Below the pieces are notes generated by a model. That model had not been told where the DNA came from, searched no databases, and was given only the letters and a program-made list of their open reading frames with translations. From assembly GCF_000189635.1 (NCBI RefSeq), contig NW_002476417.1, forward strand, positions 62,001 to 126,000: a DNA stretch of 64,000 bases. The letters are read 5' to 3'. Below are positions 2,882-62,692 of this stretch, in pieces. Origin of the DNA: Tetrahymena thermophila SB210. Its lineage: Eukaryota; Ciliophora; Oligohymenophorea; Hymenostomatida; Tetrahymenidae. Made by a program: the position numbers and the translations under genes. Position 1 is the stretch's first letter. Each line of letters starts with the position of its first letter.

Positions 2882-5800
2882 ATGTTTAAGTGTAATCGTA
2901 AATAATGCGTTTATAACGATGACAGCAAGTCATAGGCTAATTAAAGCATCATTTATAAGCCTTGTTATGGATGTTATGAAGTTTTTTATTGTTCACAAGA
3001 ATGCTTAGATATGGATAAGTAAATTATATTAATTTTTTAATAAAAACAGATATTTTAAAAAGTGGATGCTTGCAATTAAATTTAATTATATAATTTGGGG
3101 CTATTTTTAAACAATAATTATATTGTAGACCTAATCATAAATGCGGATAAAAAAATGATCAAGGAGATTCAGATAAAAAAAATAATCCTGATTATACCCA
3201 ACTAATAGATGAAAGCGTTAATTAAAGTACAATGTCACAATCTAAAAGAATGAGGAGCTTAGAGGATTACGAGTTTATAAATGTACCAAAAAAAAGTAAT
3301 GGAGACTTGGGTAGAGGAGCTTTTGGTGAAGTTAAACTCATCAAAGAAAAGGCAACTTCCAAATTATTTGCTTTAAAAATTGTAAAAACTTATACTTCTA
3401 TATATTATATGATGTTCGTTTAGTTTGCTTTTAAAGTAATATTCCAAAAAAACAAAAATAAAAGCAAATTAATTCGAAGTAGTAATTAAATAAGTACATC
3501 GTTTTTATACTAAAAACGTCAAAGTATTTCTGACAAAAAATCATTTTTTTGAATTTAATCAACTTATTAAAGCAAAATAAATTAATTTTATTTAATAGAT
3601 AAATAAGAAGAACTTAAAGATGAGAGGATATGTGGATTAGATGAAAAAAGAAATTAAACTTCAAAAAAAATTGAATTTTCCACATGTTCTTCGTTTTTAT
3701 CATAAATTTGAGGACTCAAATAATGTTTACTTTGTCCTTGAATATGCAGAAAGAGGCTCTGTTTTCCAACACCTAAAAAAGAAGCGTAACATAACAGAAG
3801 AAGAAGCTTTTTATTTGTTCATTTAATCATGCTTAGCTATAGACTATTTACATAGACAAGGTATTATACACAGAGATCTCAAAGTGAGCTATTATTTTAT
3901 AATTATATCAAACAAACATTTTAGATTTAATTAAAATAAATTTATTCCCTTTTTAATTTAATTCTATATAAATCAGCCTGAAAATCTTTTGTTAGATTCT
4001 TATGGAAACATTAAACTATGTGACTTTGGATGGAGTACATAATTTACTGATTAACGCTCAACTCAATGTGGCACACCTGATTATATGAGCCCTGAAATTA
4101 TTCGTTTTGAGTAGCATGATTAAACTGTTGATATTTGGTCATTAGGTAATCTAATCTCTCATTTCTATTTATAAAATATAAAACAAAATTTAATGATCAC
4201 TCATTTTAAAGTATTCATATAAATATATTTTTATAAAACAAAAATTTTTTCAATAAATTAATGTTTCTTCTTTTTACTAAAATAATTTTTAGGTGTTTTA
4301 TTATTTGAGCTACTTAATGGATTTCCTCCATTTAGCAAATAAGGATCTTAAACTTTTAAGATGATTGAAGAAATGAAGGCAGCTGAAAAAAATGGAATAT
4401 AATATGTTAAGAAATGTTCACCTGAAGTATAAGATTTGATCTAAAAAATTTTATAGATGGATAGCAAGAAGAGATTAACTATTGATTAAATTTATAGTCA
4501 CACTTGGTGTTAACAGATGCTTAAAAAGTAAAACTGGAAAATAGAAAATGGATTACTTGTTTAACTAAATTCAGCTTAAGATAATTAAACAAAATAAACT
4601 GCAAATGAAAAAAAAGGAGGCTTAAATGAATAGTTAGATGCTAATAATCCATCAAAAAGCCCTATTCGTTAAGTTGGAATTTCTCCAAACAAACCAACAT
4701 TCAAAACATTGTTTGAAAATACTACTAATACCAGTGTTAATGCAAGTATGCTTAGTTAGCAGGGATAAAATAAATCATAAATTTTTGGTGATCCTAATTA
4801 AAGCAGGATAAGTAACAATGGAAGAAGTATCTCTTAGATACCTAGAAAAAGTTAATTAGATGCAAGTTCTATGAGTGGAAATACAACTATGAATAGATCA
4901 GTAAGTCCCAATAGAATTCCTCAAAATCACTCTACTCTTTTCTAAAAGGCTGCTTTAGAAAAATAAAATTTAAATGATCAAAGTATGATGGATTAAAGTA
5001 AGAACGACATTAGTATCGTTCATGATCAAGCTTCAACAGCTAGAGGAAATTACTAGATGACAAATAACAATTAAAAGCCATTTGAATAAGCTAATTAAGT
5101 AGGAAATAGGCCATCTCATTTAGGTTAAAATCAAGATAAATCTCCAATAAAGCAAGGGATATTCAATAATTAGTAGCAGTAGAATAATAATTTCGATAAA
5201 TCTCCTTCTAGATAAGGAGTGTTTCAAACATAAAATAATAACAACCCAGATATATCACCTGCAAGGAAATTCTAATTCATTGATCCTGCTGCCACTAACT
5301 TCTTGAAACCTAAAGAAAATAATACAGACAAATCCCCCGCAAGATAAAATTCTTTTATTGCCACTGGGGCTTCAAATATTACTAAGCCTGCCGATTACAC
5401 AAATGATAAGTCACCATCTAGATAAGGAATTTTTGGTAATTCTAATAATATGAATAACACAATTAACAACACCTCGAATATAGATTAAGGCAGAAAATCT
5501 AATAATAGAATCTTTGATACTACTCCACCAGCAAGACTTTCTAACAATAGAATGGATACGAGTACAACAAATTAAAATAATACTTAGCAAAATACTAGTA
5601 TAAATTAAATTGATACTTCTACTTTAAATAAGGCAACTGGAAGATAAGCTGGATTCGATGCTTCTCCAATCAGAAGGTAATCTCATAACCGCATGGAAAG
5701 TAGCAATATTTCATAAAATAACATAAATCAAAATACTAGCTAAATGAATACCTCTTAATTGAATAAATCACCAAACAGGTAAAAAATATTTGATGCCTCT

Positions 5801-8800
5801 CCAATTAATAGGCCTTCTCACAATAGAATGGAAAGTAGTAACATTAATAATGTTTCTGCTAACAATATAAGTAACTTAGATTAGTCTAATTTGAGTAAAT
5901 CTCCAAATAGATAAAAAATATTTGATAATCCACCTCCTAATAGACCTTCTAATAACAGAATGGATTAGTAAGGAAATAACCCTTAGCTTTAAAATGCTTA
6001 GTCTGATATAAGTAAAATAGATACTTCTTAACTAAACAAAACGCCAACAAACAAAAGAATATTTGATACTTCTCCAATAAGAAACGCTAATGTTAATAAC
6101 TAATAAAATATACCTTTTGGATCTGGCTTAAATAGCTAAAGGCCAATTTCTCCTATTAATAATAGAGCTCCTGCATCACCTATTAATGCTTAAAAATTTG
6201 ACTTCTCAAACACGGTTAATGGGTAGAATGCCTAATAAAATTTAGGCAATCTTAAAGAAATGTCTCCAATTGAGAAACCAAAAAAATAAGATTCAAACTT
6301 TGGAGTTGAGAATCAGTCCAACAGAAATTTTCCACACCCATTTAAAGGACAGCAATCAGGAATTCAGATAGTGAAGCAAGGAGGTGGTGATGATATGACT
6401 TTAGATTTGAGCTTAAGTTCTTTTCCAAATGATTTATCTATTATTTCAGATAAAAGTGCATTCCTTTAAACTACTAATATAATGAGAGAAAAAACTGACC
6501 CATTTTCTGGTATTTAGCCTATCAAAGAAGAAGAAATATAAATGAAGCCAAGAATGTCAAGAAATGCTAAAAATATTGATTTTAAGCAAACAGAATTTGC
6601 AAATCATGTAAATTAATAAATTATAATTATTTTGATATTAAAAATATACTCTAAAATCAGGAAATGATGTAATAATTTGTTGAGAAGCTGAAAAGAGAAT
6701 AAAAAGAGCAAGTTGCATTGATAGAAAAAGATTTAGAGGATTTGAGAAAAGAAAATGAATAGCTTAAGGATTCTTCTTAAATATATGCTGCAGAGTAGCT
6801 AGAATAAAATAGGTAATACGAAGAATATTTAAGAAACTAAATAAAAGAATTGTAATAACAGCAAAAGCAATAAATTAATGAATATAAAACTATGGAAAAA
6901 GAAATGCAACAAAAGAATGAAAAAGTAATTTCAGAATATAAATCAAAGTAAATTGATCTTTAAAAGCAATAAGAAAAACTGGAAAAGGAATATCTAAAAT
7001 TAGAATCATAACAAACTTAGTAAGCCTAAGCTTGGTAACAGTAATTATTAGAGTAACAGTAAAAACTGTAAAAGGTAATTAAATAAACATACAATTTTAT
7101 GAATAATTTGTTTAAATCCTATTATAAATTAAATAGGAATACGAAAGGAAACAAAAAGAAATTTTAAAAGAGTAAGAAAGAAAATAAAAAGATTTTGAAG
7201 ATAAATGGAAAGATATTGGCATGTAATAGGAAAGTAGTAGATTTGAATAATCATTTATGAATCTCCAACAAGACTAAGATAAAAAGATAGAAGAAATGAG
7301 AAAAGAATATTCATAAAAGTAGAAAGAACTATTAAAAAAGTAAGAAGAATTTTAAAAAGAATAAAAGAAATTAGAATAAACATAAAAAGACTAACAAGAA
7401 AAAATAAGGTAACAGCTGGAAGATAGAACTGCTTAGCTAGAAAAAGATTATGAAAAGAAGTAGCTACAAATAAAATAAGAAATGGAGAGAAAGTATCTCT
7501 CATTGGAAAATTAAATGAAAGAATAAGAAGCTAGTAAACGTAAAAACTTAGAAAAAGAATTAAAACTTTATAAAGAATCTGGCAATATTGCTTTGGAAGA
7601 GTAAAAAAAATATTTTGAAGAACAATATTCTGTTTTAGAGTAGTCATATATTCGTATGGAAAAAGATCAGCTTACTCGTCAAGAATAAATGAAGGAAGAA
7701 TATGATAAAAAGTAAAAATAGATAGAAAAAGAGTAAAAGCAGTTAACAGCTTAGTTAGCTTAGCTTAATAAAACTTAAAATTAACAATAATCAAAATGGG
7801 AAGAATCCTTATCAGAACATGCTGAAAAGATGAAATAAGATTATAAAAACTAAAGAGAAGCTCTTTTAAAAGAAATGGAATAAAAAAAGATTGAATTTGA
7901 AAGTATTATGCAAAAAAGGTAAAATGATTTGGAAAAGGTATTACAGGCTAAGAAATAGCAAGATTCTGTTTCAGAAGAGTCTTTTATTATGTTTGAGGAA
8001 AGAAAAAGAGTATGCTTTGAAGAGTAAAATGAGTAGATTGAGTAAAACTTTAAGCGCGCTGAGTAAGAATAGAAATAGCGTCTTAAAGAATTGGAGAAAG
8101 AATTCCAAATTAAATAAGCCGAATAAGAAAAAAGCTACCAAGAACTTCGATTACAGTATAATAAATTTGTTCAAGAATAACAAGAATACTTAGCTTCTTG
8201 GTAAGCATAAGTTGAGTAAAAAACACTTTCTCTCTAGGAAGATTACATAAATATTTAAAAGGAACTAAGAAAAGAATTTTCTAAGAAGTAGACAGAATTT
8301 GAGGACAGACTTAAAGAAAGGAATTCAATAAAACGTTAAGAATTTGAAAAGATTCTAAGACAAAAAAATGAATAGTATGAAGAGTTATGCGAACATCGTT
8401 AACGTCATGAAGAATAATTTTAACGATTAGAATAGTCCTATATCGAACTTCAAAAGGAACATAAGAAAAAATATTCTTAGCTTTAAAAATAATATGAAGA
8501 TAAATAGAAGGAGATTGAAGCTAATCAAAAAGTGATTTTAGAGAAATATTCTTAGCTTGAATAAAATAGTATGAAATAACGTGAATCAATTAAGAAAAAT
8601 ATAGAATTTACTGTTTAGTAGCTCTAACAAGAATATGAAACAAAATAAAAGGATCTTTTTAGTGAATTTGAAAAGAAACAAAGGTAATTCGAAGAAAGAA
8701 TTCGTCAAAAAGAAATGGAAAAAATTGAAAATGAAAATATGGATGTGTCTGGTATTATGAAATAGAAATATGAAATGCAAGAGTAATACTCTTTCCTCCA

Positions 8801-10766
8801 AGAAAACTACAGCGCTTTATAGACTGAATAAGAAGAAAAGATAAAGTAAAATATTATCAATTTTGTACTAATAATTTTTTTTAAATTCTTTTAAATTTAG
8901 ATTTATTTAATTCAACATTTTATTTAATGAAGGAAACTTGAGGCAGAGTATAAGAAAAAATAAGCTGAATTAGAGAGGGAGCAGTCAATATTGAAAGAGA
9001 AAACTAAAAGTTTGGAAAAGGGGTAAGAAGGTCTTTATAAAAGATGGTAGCAAGAACTTTAAGAGAAGAATGAAGAACTAAAAAGTGATTATGAGTAAAA
9101 ATATGATGAACTTAAAGAAGAGTTTGAAAAGAAATAGTTGGAATTTGAAAAGAAATTAAGAGAAAGGGAGAGCACAAAAAGAAGAGAATTTGAGTATAGA
9201 CTATAAGAAAAAGAAGAAGAAATTTCTAGGCTGAGAGCTCAAGGAGATAATACTGATTAATCTTTTGTTTCTAAATAAAGAGTTGCTGAATAAGAATATG
9301 TTCAAAAATAAAAAGAACTTGAGGAATAGTATAGAGAATTATAATAGTATTGCTAAAATTTAGAAAAAAATTAAATGACCTCTTTAATGTAATACGAGTA
9401 GAAAATGGAGGAATAAATTAGAGAAATATAAGCTGAATACTTCAAAAAGCAGTTGGATTTATAAAAATAATTCAATGAAAAGTAGAAAAAATTAGACTAA
9501 AAAATGAAAAATTTAGATGATAGCGAGTTGTCTTATTCTGTTAACTCGAATGCTGATTAGACTTACTTATTTGAAGAGAAATTGGATTAATCAATTTAGA
9601 AAGTTTAGCTAGAATCACAAAAGAAACTTGAAAAAATAGAAAAGTAGTACAAATCAATGAATGATGAGTATCAAAAACACACTACAGAAATGTAAAAAAA
9701 GCTTGAAGATTTAGAAAAGAAGCATGCTCAGTTTATTGAGCAATAACAAAAATAGATTTTACAAAGCTAAAATAGAGGACAATTAGCGATCTAAACCTAG
9801 GACAATTCAAAATAAGATCGTACTCCTGCTTCTCCTAAACCAATTAAAAAATAAAAATCTATAGAAAAAGATGATGAACAAAATGGGATCATGAATTCTC
9901 GCAAAATTCATTCATAAGATAAAAAATTACATAGCAGTCAGCTCACTCTAGAAAAATAAAATAGTGGTAAAAGAAATTAGTCAGCTTAACAACTTGAAAA
10001 ACCTCCTAAATCTCCTAAAACAAAGAAATAGTCATTCCCAGATTTGCAGTCGATAATAGAACGCCCAACTGTAGAAAGCTCTTAAGGATATGATAGTATA
10101 TTAATTTTCATTTAATTTAAATAATTTTAAAAAATTTTCATAAAATAGATGATCCAGATCTTAAAAAGGTTTTGAAAAGCATGTAAGAAAGTATCAATAA
10201 ACTTAATAATAATCTATAAAACTAGAATGACTTATCTATGAATTAGAGTAGATAGATGATGGCAGATCTTTCTATGGAATCTAATATGAGCAAAATTAGA
10301 AGAATCCAAATGAAAAATTCAAAAATTAATGACTCTGCTGATGAGTACTATGACCCTATGATAAATAGAACTTATTTAGAAGCCTCTTTGCTTAATTAGA
10401 GTCAGTTAAATACTAAGTAAATTTAAGTTAAAAAGAAGTTCATGCATTAATTATTATTTATAGATTAAGCTAAAAAAAATTAGATTTACTGAATGAGTCA
10501 TCCTTAAGATAACAAGCAAGAAAGAGTAGTAATTTTGATGTTTCTGTCAGTACTATTAGTGAAGATAGTAGAATAGTTCGCTAAAAAATGAGTCGTTAAC
10601 AAGAAAAAGAACTTCGTCCAATAGAAAACAAAAAACCAACAAAAGAAGAAGTAAGCTTAAAGCAAAAAAAATAAATAATAATTAATTATAAAATTTTTTA
10701 TTAATTTAGGATTTGGGATTCTTTGATAGAATTAAATATGTATTTGGTTGCACAACAAGAAGATGA
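2882..10766 (+). CDS. MYND-finger / Aurora-type protein kinase / giant coiled-coil protein
   Basis: Eleven exons (2882-3018, 3129-3381, 3599-3883, 3977-4145, 4293-6607, 6661-7074, 7137-8845, 8933-10095, 10149-10416, 10464-10650, 10710-10766) join in phase to 6,957 nt, 2,318 aa, ending TGA. Residues 1-60: Cys/His pattern with CYGC, YCSQEC and a closing H-x2-C, as in MYND fingers. Residues about 95-365: complete kinase fold with GRGAFG, ALK lysine (~129), HRDLK, DFGWS and CGTPDYMSPEI. DFGWS and the T-loop resemble Aurora, so catalysis is probably intact. Residues about 580-925: Ser/Asn/Gln linker with recurring SPxRQ/IFDxSP blocks. Residues about 1055-2040: Glu/Lys/Gln-rich heptad-like coiled coil. 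The C-terminus is short and basic. In known kinases of this group Aurora phosphorylates mitotic/ciliary targets. The size and added domains suggest a scaffolded kinase on a cytoskeletal structure (inference). Could it be two genes? The kinase-coil junction is a 53-bp intron with correct phase, so I favour one. Confidence 0.85.
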
Positions 10767-40352: not shown

Positions 40353-42460
40353 TCACTCTAGTTCTTAAGTTTCAGTCCTCTTTGAGAAATGAAGTGAATT
40401 GTTGATTTATGGCTTTGTAAATTTCAAAGAATTGGCAGAATCTCCAGTAGGTTTTTCAGTTCTCCAAGCTAATTATTTTTTCTATTCCGTATCTTCTTTG
40501 CTATAATCTTCGTCAATTTTATTAGCCTAGGTAACTTTATCAAATTGCAATTTTGTACTTTACTTTTCTTTGAGCTTTTTGTTATTCCTTTAAAGGCAAT
40601 CCTTTACATCAACAAATATTACATCAGACAATCTTTTTTTTTTTGCAAGAGGAGTTTCATTAGTAGAGTTATTATCTTCATTTTGACTTTCATTAATATT
40701 GTATTCATCGTATTGTTCATTTTCTGAGCTGAATACCTCACTGCTTTTCTCTGTTTAAGATAATAAAAAGATTGTTTATCGTATTACATAAAAATTCACT
40801 AGTTTTGTTAGAACATTGATATTTTCCTTTAATTATTGGCAAATAGCGTAGTTTACAGTTATTAATTTTAGATTTTGAAATATTACTAAAATAATCTTAA
40901 GTAAATAAATAAATAAATGCTTCTCAAAAGCACACTTTCTAAACTACAAAGCCAAAAAAAACAAAAACAAAATTAATTTTAGTATACGTTGTGATGATTA
41001 ATTAGCCAAGATAAGTGTATTCGAAGCAGGTTTATAACTCTCTTATTTATAACTTCCAACGCATCCAAGAGCACTAAATCCTCCATTGCTTTATTTTGAA
41101 AGCAATTGATTTATCATCTCATCCACTAATTTATTTTAAATATGAAAAAATTAGTTCAAATTGCTAAAAAGAGGGAGTTATGTATGTATATTCGTTTATA
41201 ATTGTAATGTATTGTATTGTGTTTTATGAAAAAAATTTGATGATAGATACAATACAACCAATAAACTAAATAGTTCACTGAATTTAAAATTTAAGTAGCT
41301 AATTTAAACAAAGCTAAGTAAGTTTTTATCCAGCAAGTAGGGAGAATCATTTAATTTTAATATTATGATATCTACTAAATCTAAATGTTTTGTTTACTTT
41401 TTAAACAAGCTCGAGGCGTCGAATTTAAAATAGATGAGTGTCTTACACGTTTTGGGTAATTCTTTGAGATGTATATAGAACTAGGAGAATCACCATTATT
41501 GACAAATTAGTTAAAATTTGAGCTTACTTGAGTTTTATTCTTTACAAAATTGGTTTAAGAAGGTCCGTATGAAGCAGAACGCTTCTTTAAATTACTCTTT
41601 TCATTCTTTAAAAATTCTTTTACTTCTCTATTTAAGTAGCGATGGTGCTTAGGAGGCTAATATAAATTTTACAGCTAAAAGAATAGTTTTTTGTTTGTGT
41701 TTTTGAATCCTACTAACAAAGTAGGCAAAAAATATCCTTTTAAGTACCAATTATCCATCTCAATAGAAGTAAATGGTCCCTATATACAATCTTATTCATC
41801 AATATAAAACCATCCTCTTTCATCTAATTAAACTGATTTCATCATAGGTGATTATGAAAATGGAGATGTTGCTGATTTACTGTTTCTTTTTTTGGGTGAT
41901 GACTCATTTTGCAGCGCAGGAGACTCTGACCTCTTAGTTCCGCTACCTCTACGACATTCAGTGATTATATCTTAAATGTAGTTTTTAGAGGAGCGCTTTA
42001 TTTAAACTGAACAATTTGAATTACGCTTTGAGCCTCCAGGAGTATTGCTTGAGCACATGCTTGTTTACATAAAACTTCCATTACGTGAGCTCGTAGCGCT
42101 GCTAATATTTTTTAAGTTAGATAATCCCTTCTAAGAACTACCACTATTTCTTGACTTTGCATTTCCGACAATCAGGGGAAATCTATAGAATATCTCTTGT
42201 CTTTGTGGAGGATAATACTCTTCAGTACAAATAACATTAGGATAAATACTTTCTGATTCAAGATTATCATCTATATTATTTATTTCGTTGGTAGTTAGAG
42301 GGTTTTACTTCAAATTTTCAGGATTTTGACATACAGAGACAAATATCTCCTAATGATCAAACATGATATAAGGCATCGTGGGGTTTCCTTCAAAGAACTC
42401 CTTTAATTTGATAGGATGAAATGCCTAAAGAAGCTCTTCCTTTGAATATTGCATGCTCAT
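40353..42460 (-). CDS. GYF-domain protein with eIF4E/4EHP-binding motif (GIGYF/SMY2-like)
   Basis: Exons 41398-42460, 40988-41125 and 40353-40750 join in phase to 532 aa. Residues about 215-270 form a GYF domain: GWFYIDEQDCIQ then GPFTSIEMDNWYLKGYF, an exact fit to GPF-x4-M-x2-W-x3-GYF, followed by LPTLLVGF. GYF domains bind proline-rich peptides. The extreme N-terminus is MSMQYSKEELLQAF. YSKEELL fits the Y-x4-L-phi eIF4E/4EHP-binding consensus, at the same N-terminal place as in animal GIGYF proteins, which repress translation. The regions between are Ser/Asn-rich. The C-terminus is charged, with a basic KKKRL. Function as a translational repressor or mRNA-decay adaptor is inference from this two-motif architecture. 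Confidence 0.85.
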
Positions 42461-42702
42461 AATTATATAGGAGGATACTTATTTAAATTAATAGACAGCT
42501 GACTAAGATAAGCTATGTTTGAACTCCCCGTGAATTCACCAAATTATTTACTTACTCTTTAATATTGTGTGAGACTATATGTAGAAAGAAAACACTTTAT
42601 ACTTATATAACCAAATAATTAATTATTTTGAAAGACAAATAGATATTCTTGTTATATTGTATGAGATGTTTATTAGTTTTTTTGTATTGTATTGTGAGGA
42701 TA

Positions 42703-48706: not shown

Positions 48707-51700
48707 TCAATCGAAAAATTAAGAAATTATTTTATCTATGAGCTAGCTTTGTTTTGCTTATGTAATTTGCTGGTGGTTATATTAGCTCTGCTGATTTTTA
48801 ATAAAATCATGTATTTTTTTATCTATGTTACTTTCGCTTGGATCAATTAGCTAGTATAATTAATTTTTTACTTCTTACCAAAAATGAGAGTTATTTACTG
48901 TAGGTTCTCGGACAGCAAATTAAATCTTTATAACTGGTCCAAAACTACATTCTTTCTCCCATGAATTGGTTTTTATTTCAAACATTTGCCACTAGGTTGT
49001 ATACGTTTTTATTTCTGAAGGTATCTTGACCTGCATATGAATGGTACCATCTTGCCCAACTGCTAACTTTTAAGAAGGTGAAAATTTTGTTTTTTCAAAC
49101 ACTCCTTTTATGCATTTAAGATAGAAATTATTAATGTCCCAGTTTTTTTTGCCAACATTCTTTATTTCAATTAAAATATCCCGTTTTTCACCAGGGTAGC
49201 AATCAATAATTTAGTTTTGGGAATATTCAGCTACTTCTACTTAGTAAGGTTAAGTAAGTTCGTGCTTTTAAATGCCATTTTTACTTTTATTATTTTTAAA
49301 TATATTTTTCATATCATATTCTTTTGATTCCTCTTCTTCATTTGAGAAATCATCATAGATATCGAACTCTCCTTCTACTTTTTTTAAGAAAGCAGCAGTA
49401 TTTTGGGATACTTATTTTTTTAAAGGAACAGCACTATTATTTATTAAATTATTGAAGTTATTGTTTTAGATCTGTTAGCCTCCTTCATTTTTATTATTTA
49501 GTGAAGTTAATTCATTAAAAAAATCAATTTATTCTTACTGATTTTCTATATAAAATTTACTTTGCTTTTCCTAATGAGGAATTTGAAACAAGTTATTAAA
49601 CTATGAATTTTTTTAAAAGTTGGCATATAATTATTACTGAATTTCTTCCTCTTGGTAGCTGTTTCCAATTTTATCTGCATGTGAGTTAAATTAATTAAAT
49701 GCTTAGAGATACTGTTCATCTGGAAATTCATTGAAGGAATGTAGCTTTTGCTCACCATTTTAGTTATTTTTTTCTTTGCTTTAGCTGTTATCAAAACTGA
49801 TTGAATTTTTTGGAGATTTGTGGTTACTACCAAACGAATAGCGATGGAGTCCTCCTTGCAAGAACTGTTCATTCAAATTTTAAAAAGTATAATCATTCAA
49901 TCCATCCCTAAACATATCTATTTATTTATTATCTTGCTATTTATCTTCTCGACTTGTTTAGTTGCTAGAATTCTTTTACAATAACATTAAAGTTTGAGGA
50001 GAATTTTAATTTTATTGATATTTTTAGTTAAAACTAACATCTAATTAAGTTAAGGGAACAGAGCTACTAACGTTTTCTTAATTCTTTTGGTTATCAATTT
50101 TATTTATATTTTCAGATTGTGCTATATGGGAAGGAGGCTATTGATCAAATTCTTATTAAACTTATTGCTAGTATGAAAATGCTCTAATAGTTTTTCTTTT
50201 CTTTTTTTCTATTTGGCTTTCAATTATTGGTCTTAAAAATGGTAGGATTTCTTTTATTTTATGGCTCACAACAGTCATGATCAGTTTTTGTTTATCTTTG
50301 TATTTGCAAATGAGATTCTTTTTACAGAATTTGCACTTCTCATTTGATAGCATTTCCTAAACGCATTAAGTGCAGTTTGGATCTTTCTTAAGTTCTTCAA
50401 CAGTCTTCTTTTAAATCTACTTCAGTGTATGAAAATATTAAGGGATATTATTTTCCCTGCTATCATCTTTAGATTTTTATATAACAATGCTTTATTCTAT
50501 AAATTGCTCAAAACCATATTGATTGGCCCTTTCATTTTAGAGTTCTTTCTATATGCTTTCTAATTAGTTACTTTTGAAAATATTCTACTGAACACTTTAG
50601 CTGACAGTTTTTTCATTTACAAGAGTTACCTTGCTTTAATTTTCGACTTGCTATGACTTAACAGGCGACACCTATCTTGTTTGCTTAATCTTAGAGGGAG
50701 TATCAAAAATATAAAGATTGTTTGCTATGACTGATGGTATCTGCTTGTCTTCTTTGCTAGTACTTAGAGAAAAGCAATCAACTTAAGATATATTGTGATA
50801 TGTATCTTATTATACCATCTGCTAAAATGAAGTCTATTAAATTTCATGATTGAAACCATTATAATAATAATTACTATTAACGCTATTTTCTCTGCCTGTA
50901 TGATCACTATCTGTGCTGTTATTATTTGCAAGGACATTATTTTTTTGTTTTTATAATAATTATCCTTTCAGACTGTTGCTATCTTCTAATTTTTAACTCT
51001 TAAAGCTATCAAGATCATCAATATTAATTTAATCTTATTCACCAAAACTTGATATTTAGTTTTTAAAGTAACTTTCGCTTATCTAAGAATTTTTATTGCT
51101 ATTATTATGTTTGACATTATTGTTGCTTTATATGGATTTGAAATTTTTAGTAATACTATGATTTTATATCTCGTCAGAACCATTTCTCTATGCTTGAGAA
51201 TTTTTAGCTCCTTGACTATTCTAAGGTATATTACTGTTAATGTTCTAATTATTGAGATTACGTTCATATGTTTATTAATCCTCATAACTTGTTTATTTAT
51301 CCTTCTTCTGTTAATTTAACCCTTAATAAACTTATTTTATTGAGTTGATACCTTCATCGAGAGATGTATTGACACGATATTCTTTTTTTTGATTTATTCT
51401 ATTTTAAGAAAAATCACTTGAAAAAGAAGCAGCACCAAGAGCTTAATTATCTTTTATATTACTATCATTATTGAGAGAGTTACTGTATCTATGATTTGCT
51501 AAGTTAGGTTCAAAATGTTCTTGATAATTTTAAAGTGAATGAGTTTAACTTTAGCTATTTTTATGAATCTAAGCTCCAAATTAAAATAGGTTCTTTTTTC
51601 CAATTAAATCCATGTCATTTTACAACCCTTGAATTGATTGAGGACTTTAAATATTCATGATATTTTAGAAGTATTCTTTGAACAAAAGAAATTGTTAGTA

Positions 51701-52798
51701 ATTTGGATCCAATTAATTCAAAAACATTGCTTAAAGAGAATAAGGAGGTGGTAATGTGATAGAAGAAATTTGTCTTTGTTACTGCTATTACTATTGATTA
51801 GATTAATACTAATTTGTTTGCTATTAGTTGTGTTTGCCTTTGTTTAATAGATTTAATTAATTCTGATTAACATCTTTTGGGCTGGTGATTAGCTGATCTT
51901 ATGAGGCAAGGAAGTTATAACTCACTTGCTCATTTGAAAAATTTTCAAAATTTAAAGGCAATTAGCTTTTAAGGTTTTCTGGAATAGGTTTAGAAATCCC
52001 CCTTCTTAATGGTGTTTACTGCTAATTATTGAAATTAATCACATTTGCTGTGCTATTTCCTGTTGGTGAAAATATTTTGTTTGGCATATTCTATGTTTTA
52101 ATCCCATTCTATTTTTCTTTTTATATGTTTTCTTCATGTATTTACCCTTAATTTTCAACGTTAACAGATTATGAAGTTGTCATGGTATTACTATTGCCAT
52201 TTTAGCTGCTTGTTCTTGAAATTATTTAATTCAAATACTCTAAGTTATTTAATGAGTCATTTGGATGGGTTTGTAAATTAAAACTACTACAGTTGGAGCA
52301 AATTGATCCCTTTTAGAAACAAAATGATTACGACAAATTAGGTTAGTTGTTATCATTGATCTAAATCAACTCTGCAAATACTTTTAGATTTTTTTACTGA
52401 CTATTTTGTATTTCTTCAACTGCTGTTTAATAAGACTGCTAATCATTTATATGTACATTATCTTTATCTAGATCTACATATTTCATTACTACCTTTCCTT
52501 CTATTTTTATATGGTGATTTTTTAATAGATCTTAAGCTAGTTGTAATAAGTCTTCATAGCTATTAACCTTTTGTTTTCTTTTGTAAACATCTTATCCTAT
52601 ATATAATTTTAATTCAACATCTATCGCAAAGTTATTTTGATGACTATTATTATTTTGAGCATCTAGGAGTTCCTATTACTAATTTTTTTCCTAAATAGCG
52701 TTTGGTCCATTCGTAACTAGATGATTTTCCATTTATTAACTTTCTTTGCGTGCTATTACTTCTTCTATACTGCTTTTATATAAACTTTATGATTTCAT
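48707..52798 (-). CDS. PB1- and FW-domain protein (NBR1-like autophagy receptor candidate)
   Basis: A single exon of 1,364 codons (1,363 aa), ATG at 52798, TGA at 48707, with more than a hundred in-frame TAA/TAG codons. Residues about 54-145 resemble a PB1 domain: FAIDVELKLYIG, then an OPCA-type acidic loop MKYVDLDKDNVHIND and a closing strand LKVFAEL. Residues about 1185-1300 resemble the four-tryptophan (FW) domain of NBR1/ILRUN: CYPGEKRDILIEIKNVG, KKNW, YTTQWQMFEI and SWEKECSFGPVI. Between them lies an Asn/Gln/Ser-rich chain with one Cys cluster (about 800-825: C-x2-C, KCKFCKKNLIC). PB1 plus FW is the NBR1 arrangement. NBR1 links ubiquitinated cargo to Atg8 on phagophores. A DFFNEL stretch near residue 1085 fits the LIR consensus loosely. 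No ZZ finger or UBA is evident, so the assignment is tentative. Confidence 0.75.
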
Positions 52799-55700
52799 AA
52801 AGAATAAAAAGCTCTTCTATTACAGTTCCTTTTCTTTGAAATTTTCTGATTGAGCTGCTATACTTACTTGATTAGAAGTTTGATTTCTTTCTTTCTATTT
52901 ATTAGAAAAAATTACTTAAATTATAATATAAAAAATATTAAATTAAAAGCATAGTAAAAAGTAAACAACAGTACTATCTAATCAAATGATTCAATCAAAA
53001 TATCATTTTTGTAAACTATAATTATAATAGATTAGTAATTAAATTATAATAAATTATATAAAAGTTAATAAAATAATTTTCAATATTGCATTTATAAAGT
53101 CTAGCCATTTTTCAAACTTATTTACAAAATCAATTTAAATTTAAGTTTTGATTAATAAAAATAAGATACTCAATAAATACATTAATTTTTATTAGGAATC
53201 TAGTATATTTATTGTTTTTAATTTTATATAATATCTCTAATACTTTACCTAATTTTAAATCATTATAATCTTACTGCAATCTTCATTTTAAACTAATCTC
53301 CTATTTATAAATTGTTTTTATCTTATATTATTTTATCATCTTAATAAATCCCATATTAATGTTTTGCTCGATAATAGACAACAATAATGCAGGTTAACAC
53401 AATATTCTAAAAATCTAGCCTAAAGCATATAAAACTTAAAATTTTATTGATAAAAACTCAAAGATAATTGTTTGGATTTAGTTAAGCAAAATATCAAATA
53501 AGAGATTAAAATAAAATGTTATACAAATATGTAAGATACTCTATATAAACAAGTAATTTTACCAAATTTAAAAATATTTTAACTAAAATGCATTTTTGTT
53601 TTAAAATGTAATTGAAGATCGACTTTTAAATTTTATGAAATAAATTAATTTCTCTTATAATTATTTTATGAATAAATCTGTTTAGTATAAATAAAATGAA
53701 CTTTTACATTTAAATACTATTTTTTAAGAAAAGTTAAGAAGAAGCAGAAGAATTATTATATATTTTGAGAGTATTAAACCAATTTAGTAGAGGAAATAAG
53801 CAAATAAATTTAAAAAAATGGATATTAATTATTTATCTATGTTATTTTAATTTTATCTCTATAATTTATAATTTTAACAAAAAAAATATTAGAAAGCTAA
53901 AGGATTGAAGTGTCTATTTAGACATATTTAGAATTTCTTACATATTTTTATCTGGTTTTTGACTAATGTCTTCTATTTACTTAATTTAGCTTATAATTTT
54001 TAATTTAGCGCCTATATGAATAAATACCAGATTTCTAAAGCATTTATATTTATTTATCAAGATATCAGGGAATATTTTTACATTAGGGATTTACCTGATA
54101 TTAAAAAACATTAAATGATTATTTAGCCATTCATTTTTTAATTTTTAAACTGTAATAAAATTTTTAGAAGATTCTAAGCAAAAATCTTGAAATATGTATG
54201 ACTCAACTATATGTGATTAAGTTTGATATAAAAATATTATTTTTGGTTTTTGGCAATTGAAATTTTAATCGTTTTCTTTGATTTAATTAGTGAGAGAAGT
54301 GCTATAAAAAATTAATTTAATACAAGAATATAAAAAATATTGGAAACAAATCAGATTCAAACAGTTTGGCTGAACAAATTAAAATCACTAAAGGTTTCCA
54401 GAATTTTTAGCAAGAAAACAAGTCTTATAATTTTTCTATGCTTTTACTCATAGTGAAGTTTTAGTAAAAAATGAATTTAATAATAATTTAAAATAATTGA
54501 ATATTTTTAATTTTATTTGGCTTTATTGTAATGATATTTCAAAATATCTTTTTTTTTGAAAAAAAGTAGATAAAAATCATAGAATTAAAAGCGCTTTAGT
54601 TAGGATTTTATTAGGAAAACCTAATTTTTTATTGGATTTCTAACTCATCAGAATTTTTCTAAGCTCTATTTGGAATAATTTTTATTTTAATAAAAAAGGA
54701 TTTATTTATTAAAAGTATTTAAATTTAAAATGAATGAATTTAGAATATAAAAGATTTGCCAACAATATTTAAAGTGTCTCTTTCAATTAGATTTAATATT
54801 CAATGTTTAATTTTTGCTACTAAATCTTATTAATAATCTATCACATTCATTTTGATATATCTGGGAGACAGGAGAATAAGTAAAGCCAAATAATAAATAC
54901 CATTTAGGAGAAAAACGAAATTCAATCTTGCTCAAATCTATTTTTTTATAATTTTTCATAATTATAAATGGACCAAAATGAAATATCAAGAATACAAGAT
55001 TGAATTATTATATCTAGAAAATTTGTATGAAAAAAATTTAATAAAAGTTTCATCGCATTTAGAGAAAATTAAATGTTACTGAATATCTAGATAAATTGTG
55101 ACTTCGTAGGATATATTTATTATTAAAAATCCTTGTTAATTTATCAATTTTGATTCTGGTTATACTCGTTTAAATATCTATCTATTTTAATTATAATTTT
55201 CTTACTATTGATGATCAGAAAAAAATTGGCTAGGTTTAGATAGAAAGAATAAAATTATCAAATTATTTATTCAATATGTACTTAAGACTTCAAAAGTTCT
55301 CTAAAATAATTAAATAAATTTATCACAGAAGTTACTATCAAGTACTTTTTTACAATAAATATATTAAGAAACTGCTGTTTCTTGAAAATTCTAAACCCCA
55401 TTTTTAGAAAATTCTGAATTTATAAAATAGGATTTTACTGATTAATGATTAAAAATTTCTTTCTATAAGTGATGGATAAAATTAATTAACATATTCGATG
55501 TAATATGTATGTGTGACTGATTTTTTTAAAAGATTATATATACTTTTCACTTTTATTGTTCTAAAAAAATAATTTATTATTTCTTAAAAATGGTTTTTTC
55601 TTTGAGAGTAAAATACTTTTAATTTAGAGATTAATTAGCAAATACTTGTCTATTATACGAGATGAAAAGTCAGTAATTGAAAAATTTACCATCAAAGAAA

Positions 55701-60986: not shown

Positions 60987-62692
60987 TCATTAATTTTACA
61001 AAATACAAAAGAAGAACTCAACCTAGATAATATTTTTAAATAAAATAAAATTAAATTTATTCCATAAAATATTAAATGAAATGCTATTTTATTTTATTTT
61101 TAAATCACCTCTAATAAGCCATCTTCTTGTAAGTCTGTGCAATGAACTGCATTACGTACTCTATCTATACCAAACTAGGCTCTTATGCTGTTTGGCTTGC
61201 TTTACTTTGCTATTTATGGATCAAATGGACCACATAATTCTCTAAAATTTTGTACTACATTTTCTTATCTAACTTCTAATGCTATTGACAATCCGCTTGC
61301 TAAATGGTCAACGATCTAAATGAAATCTGGAAGAACTCCCTTTAAACAAATAAAAGGTACATTATTTTTTTAATTTATATATGCTTAATTACTTTATATA
61401 AATCTAAAAATTCCTCAGAAGTAGGGCGATCTAAGAAGAAAGATTGCATAGCACTTATTTCGTAACCTTCTGATAAGATTATATCTATAATTTTACCAGA
61501 TAGCTTTTACTTAACAATATGTGGTTTGATAACACAGCATGTGCAATTTTTAAATATAGCAGTTTTCTATATTAAAAAATTATTTCAATTTATTTAAAGG
61601 AATTTATAGCTAACCTTTAGTTGTGATTGCTTAGAAAAGAAAAAGTCAAGTTCTCTCTTTGCAGAAGTAGCTTTTAATAAATACATTTACAAAAGCAACA
61701 TTATTTTTAGCTTTCAATATGAAATGTTTAATACCTGAATCGCTTCCATGCAAACTATTTTTCACTCCATCTTAACCGAATATAGCTCTCAAGCTTTAAG
61801 GTGCATCTACCCTTGCTACCTTAATGAATTTATAAAAAATATTTAAACAAATTTATTTTGAATGATTAAATGATACTTAGCAATTTGTTGGTCCCATAAC
61901 TTTTTTCCATTAATTAATACAATCATTTCCTACTAGTTCTATTGCCACTATAAAATCTGAGCACATATAATTTGTTAACTCATCATAAAATGGTTTTCCT
62001 CTATGCTCAGCATAAAATTCTGCATAATTAATATAAATGATAATTAATTAATATTGATAAAATTCTAATTAAAAATTTATTTAGCTATTTATTTATTTAT
62101 ACCTTGTGCATCCCTTAGATTTAATTTGCACATCTTTAAGTTATTTATCGTAAAATTATTGTCTTCAATTGCTTATATTATTTTTCCTATATTTGTATAG
62201 GCATCAGGTTTAATCAAAGCTAAAGTCCTATGATTATAAAGTATATTATTAACTTCCTTTCCTTATAATATGCTTAAATATGTTTGAAATCATTTTATTT
62301 GTAAAATTCTTCATTCAAAAATATTAATTAGATAATTATAAATAAATAAATAATTTATGAACTTTTATCTTTATTAATCGAAATTGTTTCTTGTAAAGTT
62401 ATCTGCATAGTCAACAATTTTATGCTATCTACTGAAGATATTGACTATCGCTCCTATATATAAATCTTTTAACTATATAGAAGGGTAATCGCATTTCTTT
62501 AAGAACAACTTTTTAGTTTTTGCATCATACTTTTAAAGAAATTATTAATTTTATTTTAAATTGAAATAATTTACTAAAATTTACCATTTCTAATGCTCCA
62601 TCATGAAGATAGTAATATAAATGATAGACCCTAACTAAGCTTGCGTTATTATCATACCATTCAGTGATAAATGCAAATTTTTCTTCACTCAT
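60987..62692 (-). CDS. NME7: NME7: DM10 domain plus two nucleoside-diphosphate-kinase domains
   Basis: Nine exons (62585-62692, 62363-62529, 62103-62227, 61877-62019, 61735-61819, 61615-61670, 61393-61566, 61109-61339, 60987-61022) join in phase to 374 aa, the length of human NME7 (376). DM10 domain: FAFITEWYDNNASLVRVYHL through AIVNIFSRQ (residues 5-85). NDK domain 1: TLALIKPDAYTNIGK, EFYAEHRGKPFYDEL, VMGPTN, SLRAIFGQDGVKNSLHGSD (active-site His kept). NDK domain 2: NCTCCVIKPHIV, GYEISAMQSFFLDR, FRELCGPFDPQIA, SIRAQFGIDRVRNAVHCTDL, then LLEVEFFF at the end. NME7 is a component of gamma-tubulin complexes and an axonemal microtubule inner protein. The last 12 codons sit in a separate exon found by matching the family C-terminus. 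Confidence 0.95.

Follow-up and report, generated by a model that had tools for sequence, protein, structure and literature searches.

A Tetrahymena thermophila gene predicted to join a MYND-like finger, an Aurora-like kinase and a long non-heptad helical rod

A window of 64,000 nucleotides of Tetrahymena thermophila SB210 (assembly GCF_000189635.1, contig NW_002476417.1, positions 62,001 to 126,000) was analyzed. A gene on its plus strand at 2882-10766, hereafter the fusion gene, was predicted to encode a MYND-like finger, an Aurora-like kinase, a linker, a helical rod and a short C-terminal tag in one polypeptide. Sequence analysis gave the gene model, the kinase motifs and clade, two introns and a tag shared with sister kinases, a cluster of sites of the cyclin-dependent kinase (CDK) type, and the composition and period of the rod. 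The five parts are read as one gene because intron 1 splits the finger, leaving H49 and C51 on the exon with the kinase glycine loop, because exon 5 spans the kinase C-lobe through the linker, and because the tag that also ends two short sisters of the kinase stands at the far end, past the rod. A preliminary description of this DNA had placed a finger, a kinase and about 1,000 residues of coil in one protein; the split finger, exon 5 and the shared tag support that union for the finger, an Aurora-like kinase and a predicted helix of about 1,000 residues.

Exons were read with TAA and TAG as Gln and TGA as stop, and they are open only in this code; the window has a high AT content (GC 18-29% per 2 kb). 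Re-translation showed 11 exons forming a single open chain (6,978 nt, 2,325 aa), whose sole stop is the TGA at 10766. The 10 introns, predicted from the DNA, were all GT..AG, with lengths of 26-217 nt and a GC content of 8-19%. The start, the end and the 11 exons in phase were the same as in the preliminary description, and the length of 2,318 aa given there was corrected by 7 residues. The exons were as follows.

Exon 1, 2882..3018, plus strand: start codon and finger residues C4, C9, C28, C31, C37 and C41
Exon 2, 3129..3381, plus strand: finger residues H49 and C51, a linker, the kinase glycine loop and the ALKI lysine
Exon 3, 3599..3883, plus strand: kinase N-lobe and hinge to the catalytic loop HRDLK; the introns on either side are common to four paralogs
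Exon 4, 3977..4145, plus strand: PENLLLD, DFGWS and the activation loop CGTPDYMSPE
Exon 5, 4293..6607, plus strand: kinase end (about aa 364), then the linker, rich in N/Q/S, whose 12 [ST]Px[KR] sites lie at aa 404-875
Exon 6, 6661..7074, plus strand: beginning of the predicted helical rod, aa 1054-1191
Exon 7, 7137..8845, plus strand: predicted helical rod, about aa 1192-1760
Exon 8, 8933..10095, plus strand: predicted helical rod until about aa 2046, then a stretch containing Lys, Ser and Pro
Exon 9, 10149..10437, plus strand: C-terminal tail
Exon 10, 10464..10650, plus strand: C-terminal tail
Exon 11, 10710..10766, plus strand: C-terminal tag DLGFFDRIKYVFGCTTRR, common to loci L038 and L039, and the TGA stop

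Residues 104-353 matched the Pfam Pkinase profile (258.1 bits), and the motifs DFGWS and CGTPDYMSPEI, from which a complete catalytic domain had been claimed, were both present in the translation. The best PDB match scored 198.8 bits, and the best 60 of the 2,791 matched were Aurora kinases or Aurora fusions. As in the canonical Aurora kinases (Aurora A, PDB 3d14 and 2wtv), DFGWS stands at the DFG motif and the loop keeps R-x-T-x-CGT-x-DY. The Aurora loop signature is given as DFGWS-x8-R-x-T-x-CGT-x-DYLPPE in PMC3025120; the fusion kinase, however, has x6 in place of x8 and DYMSPE in place of DYLPPE. It also differs from the canonical Aurora kinases in standing outside their clade and in the extra finger, linker, rod and tag of its protein.

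Relatives were sought in the same genome (a 101-Mb assembly of 445 contigs). The genome was scanned with a degenerate DNA pattern encoding DFGW and one more residue, which matched 20 places (reversed pattern: 7), comprising 11 Aurora-like kinases with the fusion gene included, two other kinases (L041 and L053) and seven places without a match to the fusion kinase. A kinase search listed 149 matches (140 of 822 candidates scored), of which 30 were made into loci; C168:109294 (48% over part) was a further match, outside the trees. Trees of 35 rows and then of 34 rows were constructed, with the long branch L054 present in the first and dropped from the second. The outgroups were 19 of the 27 loci L010-L036 (8 left out), the Aurora A row consisted of the letters of PDB 2wtv, and the kinase domains of the paralogs L039, L043, L047, L048 and L055 were incomplete.

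The trees showed that the fusion kinase grouped with L038, L039, L044 and L055 (support 98/96 with 35 rows, 97/95 with 34 rows), and Aurora A grouped with L043, L047 and L056 in both. In the approximately unbiased (AU) test, whose groups were chosen after the 35-row tree had been inspected, a position of the fusion kinase alone inside canonical Aurora was rejected (AU p 0.0045, 34-row tree). The same tree placed the fusion clade next to Aurora and L008/L048 with weak support (84/71), and the 35-row tree with L054 left its deeper placement unsettled. Grouping with PLK was not the best tree and had a p-AU of 0.097, above rejection; Pfam scans that covered exon 5 (aa 282 onward), exon 8, the rod and the final 178 aa found no polo boxes. 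A kinase outside both Aurora and PLK, the outcome that the preliminary description had set against itself, did not appear: the clade lay beside Aurora with that weak support, and PLK kept its p of 0.097.

In all five clade members, ALKI was also followed by a GT donor, and a GT..AG pair stood between HRDLK and PEN. In five of five other DFGWS kinases examined, the exon continued through HRDLK; the ALKI site was compared within the clade only. Because the trees and two common intron positions agree, the fusion kinase is best classed as Aurora-like, outside the sampled canonical Aurora clade and in a separate clade that has five or more members in this genome; since 30 of the 149 listed matches became loci, further members may exist. 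The Aurora type first assigned to it therefore stands as Aurora-like, on the PDB matches and DFGWS, and is lost as membership of the canonical clade, on the AU test.

Expansion of the Aur family is known in ciliates (PMC3341644). The pattern search for relatives in contigs of other genomes gave 52 matches, none of them confirmed. Fifteen pattern matches in viral contigs yielded one locus, L072, which looked bacterial or phage-like by eye, had short similarity and was rejected as a relative. An NCBIfam scan returned 21 families, all far below their cut-offs.

The usual MYND spacing is C-x2-C ... C-x2-C-x4-[YF]C-x3-C-x7-H-x3-C. In the fusion protein all eight Cys/His ligands were present, and the spacing departed from the usual one at the first pair (C-x4-C) and the last (H-x-C). 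In two scans, the Pfam zf-MYND profile scored 22.9 and 23.0 bits, above its cut-off of 22.7, which upholds the MYND-like finger as first described; the match covered aa 26/27-50 and left the first Cys pair outside. Elsewhere in the genome six other places passed this cut-off, compared with none in 14 control genomes. The finger of the fusion gene was missing from the six, presumably since the search was made without splicing.

At L001 (C184:25656-25772, minus strand, and downstream), one open reading frame held both a canonical MYND finger and, about 30 residues after it, a PDK1-like kinase. As read from that frame, L001 is a second MYND-kinase fusion, so that such a fusion occurs twice in this genome. 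Like the fusion gene it carries the finger shortly before the kinase, but its kinase belongs by eye to another group (PDK1-like) and its MYND spacing is canonical.

A frame scan for C..C...C...C recovered the finger of the fusion gene and found none upstream of three of the four sisters (L038, 480 bases; L055, 890 bases; L044, about 770 bases and the start of L044; L039 was left out), in unspliced frames in which an intron-split motif would escape. Because no motif was found upstream of L038, L055 and L044, the finger may have been gained by the fusion gene alone among the sisters scanned. Both this result and the borderline Pfam score would suit a start at the Met in exon 2 (aa 81), with exon 1 not translated together with the kinase and the finger being a chance pattern or a separate product. 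However, H49 and C51 of the finger come from exon 2, and L001 provides a second MYND-kinase fusion, so we regard an exon-2 start as distinctly unlikely. That the model fuses two or three neighboring genes (finger, kinase and coil) is very improbable: although the 11 exons were drawn from sequence alone and chance long open frames are frequent in this code and base composition, the finger ligands are divided with the last two on the kinase exon, exon 5 holds both the kinase end and the linker, and the tag of the short sisters is located beyond the rod.

The last 18 residues of the fusion protein, DLGFFDRIKYVFGCTTRR, matched the very ends of L038 (...EETFFDKIMIAFGCISRDKSKKK) and L039 (...EESFLDRFLIAFGCMTRDKNKN), and the pattern FFD[RK]I..xFGCxTR closed all three proteins. 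The tag scores were 56 for L038 and 45 for L039, each reached by 0 of 2000 shuffles, and no other 22-aa stretch tested in the fusion protein scored above 28. L038 and L039 share the clade, the two introns and the tag with the fusion protein, but they end about 105-120 residues past the kinase with no rod, and L038 has no finger motif in its upstream 480 bases. Since these short sisters carry the tag and have no rod, the two are separable. Used as a protein query against the genome, the L038 tail matched the L038 and L039 places only (E up to 10); such a search cannot gauge how common the tag is, because the fusion gene's own tag escaped it.

The tails of two other Aurora-like kinases were also observed. 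L044 (with L071, C115) had DFGWC as its motif and a very long tail, rich in N/Q/S, with EEPCFSLFGC in the middle, and no rod was present in the 4.5 kb read there. L008 (C157:28176-28943, minus strand) encoded an Aurora-like DFGWS kinase followed by a near-heptad coil of about 340 residues (period 3.53); 47 possible GT..AG introns could join this coil in frame, and the two are probably one gene. The L008 coil and the L044 tail suggest that the Aurora-like kinases of this genome acquired long tails more than once.

The linker (aa 365-1053) contained 12 full CDK-type [ST]Px[KR] sites, all within aa 404-875; 2000 shuffles of the linker letters gave a mean of 0.92 and a maximum of 6. No such site was found in aa 1-95, the kinase, the rod or the tail. 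Eight of the 12 sites had the form SPxR[QRK]. Degenerate repeats of the KSPxRQxIF and NRMESSN types were found at about 4658-6085 (aa about 404-880), and SPNRQKIFD occurred twice. Several repeats hold a full CDK-type site, and because some sites recur inside them the twelve are not independent.

The longest proline-free run covered aa 1035-2058 (1,024 residues, 51% Q+E+K), and the rod was 41.7% charged with 25% large hydrophobics. Its hydrophobic period was 3.63, coherent across 993 residues: the periodicity power was 30.3 at 3.63 and 1.3 at 3.5, and none of 500 shuffles exceeded 11.7. The mean period of 22 rod windows was also 3.63, none of them being at or below 3.53, while a tropomyosin sequence typed in as a control gave 3.49-3.51. 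Of the coiled coil of about 1,000 residues first described, about 1,000 residues of predicted helix remain (the proline-free, periodic run), and the heptad coil does not, the period being 3.63 and not 3.5. Lags 7, 11, 18, 22, 29 and 36 were enriched, and lags 21 (1.01) and 28 (0.72) were not. Because lags 11, 18, 22 and 29 are raised and 21 and 28 are not, the pattern suggests eleven-residue repeats mixed with sevens. To our knowledge, a non-heptad period kept over about 1,000 residues seems unusual. Other coil-like stretches examined in the genome had periods of 3.47-3.54 (L008/L046, L063, L067 and, weakly, L035), and two weak ones had 3.62 (L050) and 3.83 (L021).

A Pfam scan of 988 rod residues found no family at E 0.001, and exon 8 gave only a sub-threshold TRIM coil match. 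AlphaFold2, run on one sequence with no alignment, predicted four helices for aa 1192-1570 (379 residues, 7137-8273), with a mean predicted local distance difference test score (pLDDT) of 72.8 and a predicted TM-score (pTM) of 0.30. As one continuous helix, 993 residues would measure about 147 nm, which is the upper reading because of breaks in this prediction. A long repeat of about 123-134 residues was suspected from the spacing of the breaks (about 125) and from autocorrelation, and was rejected: its z was only 3.1-3.5, the best lag of all (65) reached 4.3, and 300 shuffles gave a maximum of 4.5 and a mean of 2.9.

We propose, as a roughly even call, that the product is a single-chain, self-tethered ruler kinase. 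A Ser/Thr kinase head of Aurora-like type, its catalytic motifs intact, would be capped by the MYND-like finger. A disordered linker would connect this head to a helical rod, long and nearly straight, that ends in the tail and tag. The tag would be a short docking or anchoring element fixing the C-terminus at a cortical, membrane or cytoskeletal site, the length of the rod would set the reach of the kinase, and the twelve S/T-P-x-R/K sites would let cyclin-dependent kinases switch the linker. The kinase would have to be active and the rod might dimerize; a role in division or at basal bodies is conceivable, as is a spindle location. This anchored ruler is favored because its kinase-spacer-tag layout recalls ROCK2 and INCENP and because the tag is separable from the rod. 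A more specific version is tentative and, in our judgment, rather improbable: a one-polypeptide ruler with a non-heptad rod of about 147 nm, its relatives' anchor tag at the far end and a CDK-switched hinge, setting by its length a field of cortical phosphorylation. The anchor would then have been retained as the reach lengthened from about 120 residues to about 1,950.

Several observations weigh against the ruler. The MYND score is merely 0.2-0.3 bits over the cut-off, and no finger motif was seen upstream of three of the four sisters in the scan above. Among the four sisters the tag ends only L038 and L039; the L055 frame ends without it, and L044 has a related FGC motif in mid-tail only, not at the terminus. 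A function for the tag is a guess because nothing scored above the Pfam cut-offs in the last 178 aa. AlphaFold2 showed three helix breaks, near aa 1217-1222, 1340-1342 and 1466-1470 (pTM 0.30), and dimerization of the rod is not assured because the rod is not heptad.

The rod might instead polymerize laterally into a basal-body or cortical fiber, as do SF-assemblin and rootletin, with the kinase as a passenger marking the fiber. The SF-assemblin motif has 29 residues, four heptads and one skip residue (PMC8435291), and the period of 3.63 is near its 29/8 = 3.625; the rod is also rich in Q, E and K. However, enrichment at lags 11, 18, 22 and 29 without 21 and 28 misfits four heptads and a skip, so that SF-assemblin-type repeats were unsupported and were rejected, and the rod matched no Pfam family. 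We therefore consider a structural scaffold unlikely. Still less probable is an extensible monomeric leash, in which the rod would be a single alpha-helix like that of INCENP and the kinase would reach moving targets under tension. The INCENP coil is a monomeric helix thought to permit long excursions of Aurora B (PMC4571873), and the high charge of the rod would suit such a helix, but 25% large hydrophobics in a sharp stripe would be needless for it.

The self-tethered ruler has partial counterparts in known systems. ROCK is an AGC kinase with C-terminal PH/C1 domains. In ROCK2, a long coil lies between the kinase and a membrane-binding end, and the tether length sets function as a ruler (PMC4686654), which is the order of kinase, long tether and anchoring end proposed here. 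The fusion protein differs from ROCK in that its kinase is Aurora-like and stands away from PKA in the tree, its last 178 aa have no PH/C1 Pfam match, and its rod is not heptad. The INCENP helix (213 aa, about 32 nm) tethers Aurora B (PMC4571873), so that the chromosomal passenger complex likewise holds an Aurora kinase on a helical leash; however, INCENP and Aurora B are two proteins and the fusion protein is one chain.

Among alveolates, the Aurora-related kinases PfArk-2 (193.8 kDa) and PfArk-3 (475.7 kDa) have long extensions (PMC3025120), and known Aurora-related kinases are therefore not confined to the 300-450 aa with short tails that had been stated for Aurora kinases. Since these Plasmodium kinases are also very large, size alone is not new. 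Pfark-3 is without the Aurora loop signature, and the likeness of both to the fusion protein is by description only, the available part of that source mentioning neither finger nor rod. Among the papers listed, the literature search met no account of a MYND-Aurora or rod-Aurora protein, which is not proof of absence. The earlier claim that no Aurora-type kinase is known to carry a MYND finger or such a coil is qualified by L008, a probable coil-tailed Aurora-like kinase, and by L001, a MYND-kinase. None of the papers listed showed finger, Aurora-like kinase, CDK-site array, non-heptad rod and shared end tag together; the fusion protein is a variant of a known kinase expansion and not an entirely new type of protein.

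Aurora kinases are normally positioned by partner proteins. If the ruler is correct, a self-carried tether and anchor would build enzyme placement into the kinase chain, and the short sisters, which bear this tag too, are a natural control. If it fails, a clear domain build-up in an expanded kinase family remains.

Three further minus-strand features were observed in the window. A 1,424-aa open frame at 48710-52981 had no Pfam match at E 1e-5. A 459-aa open frame at 41159-42535 contained a GYF domain (46.8 bits against a cut-off of 25.7). At 61792-62289 lay one exon of a nucleoside diphosphate kinase gene of NDK7-like type, with a clearly diverged match to PDB 8g2z over 67 residues, and the neighboring frames to about 60605 look by eye like the rest of this gene.

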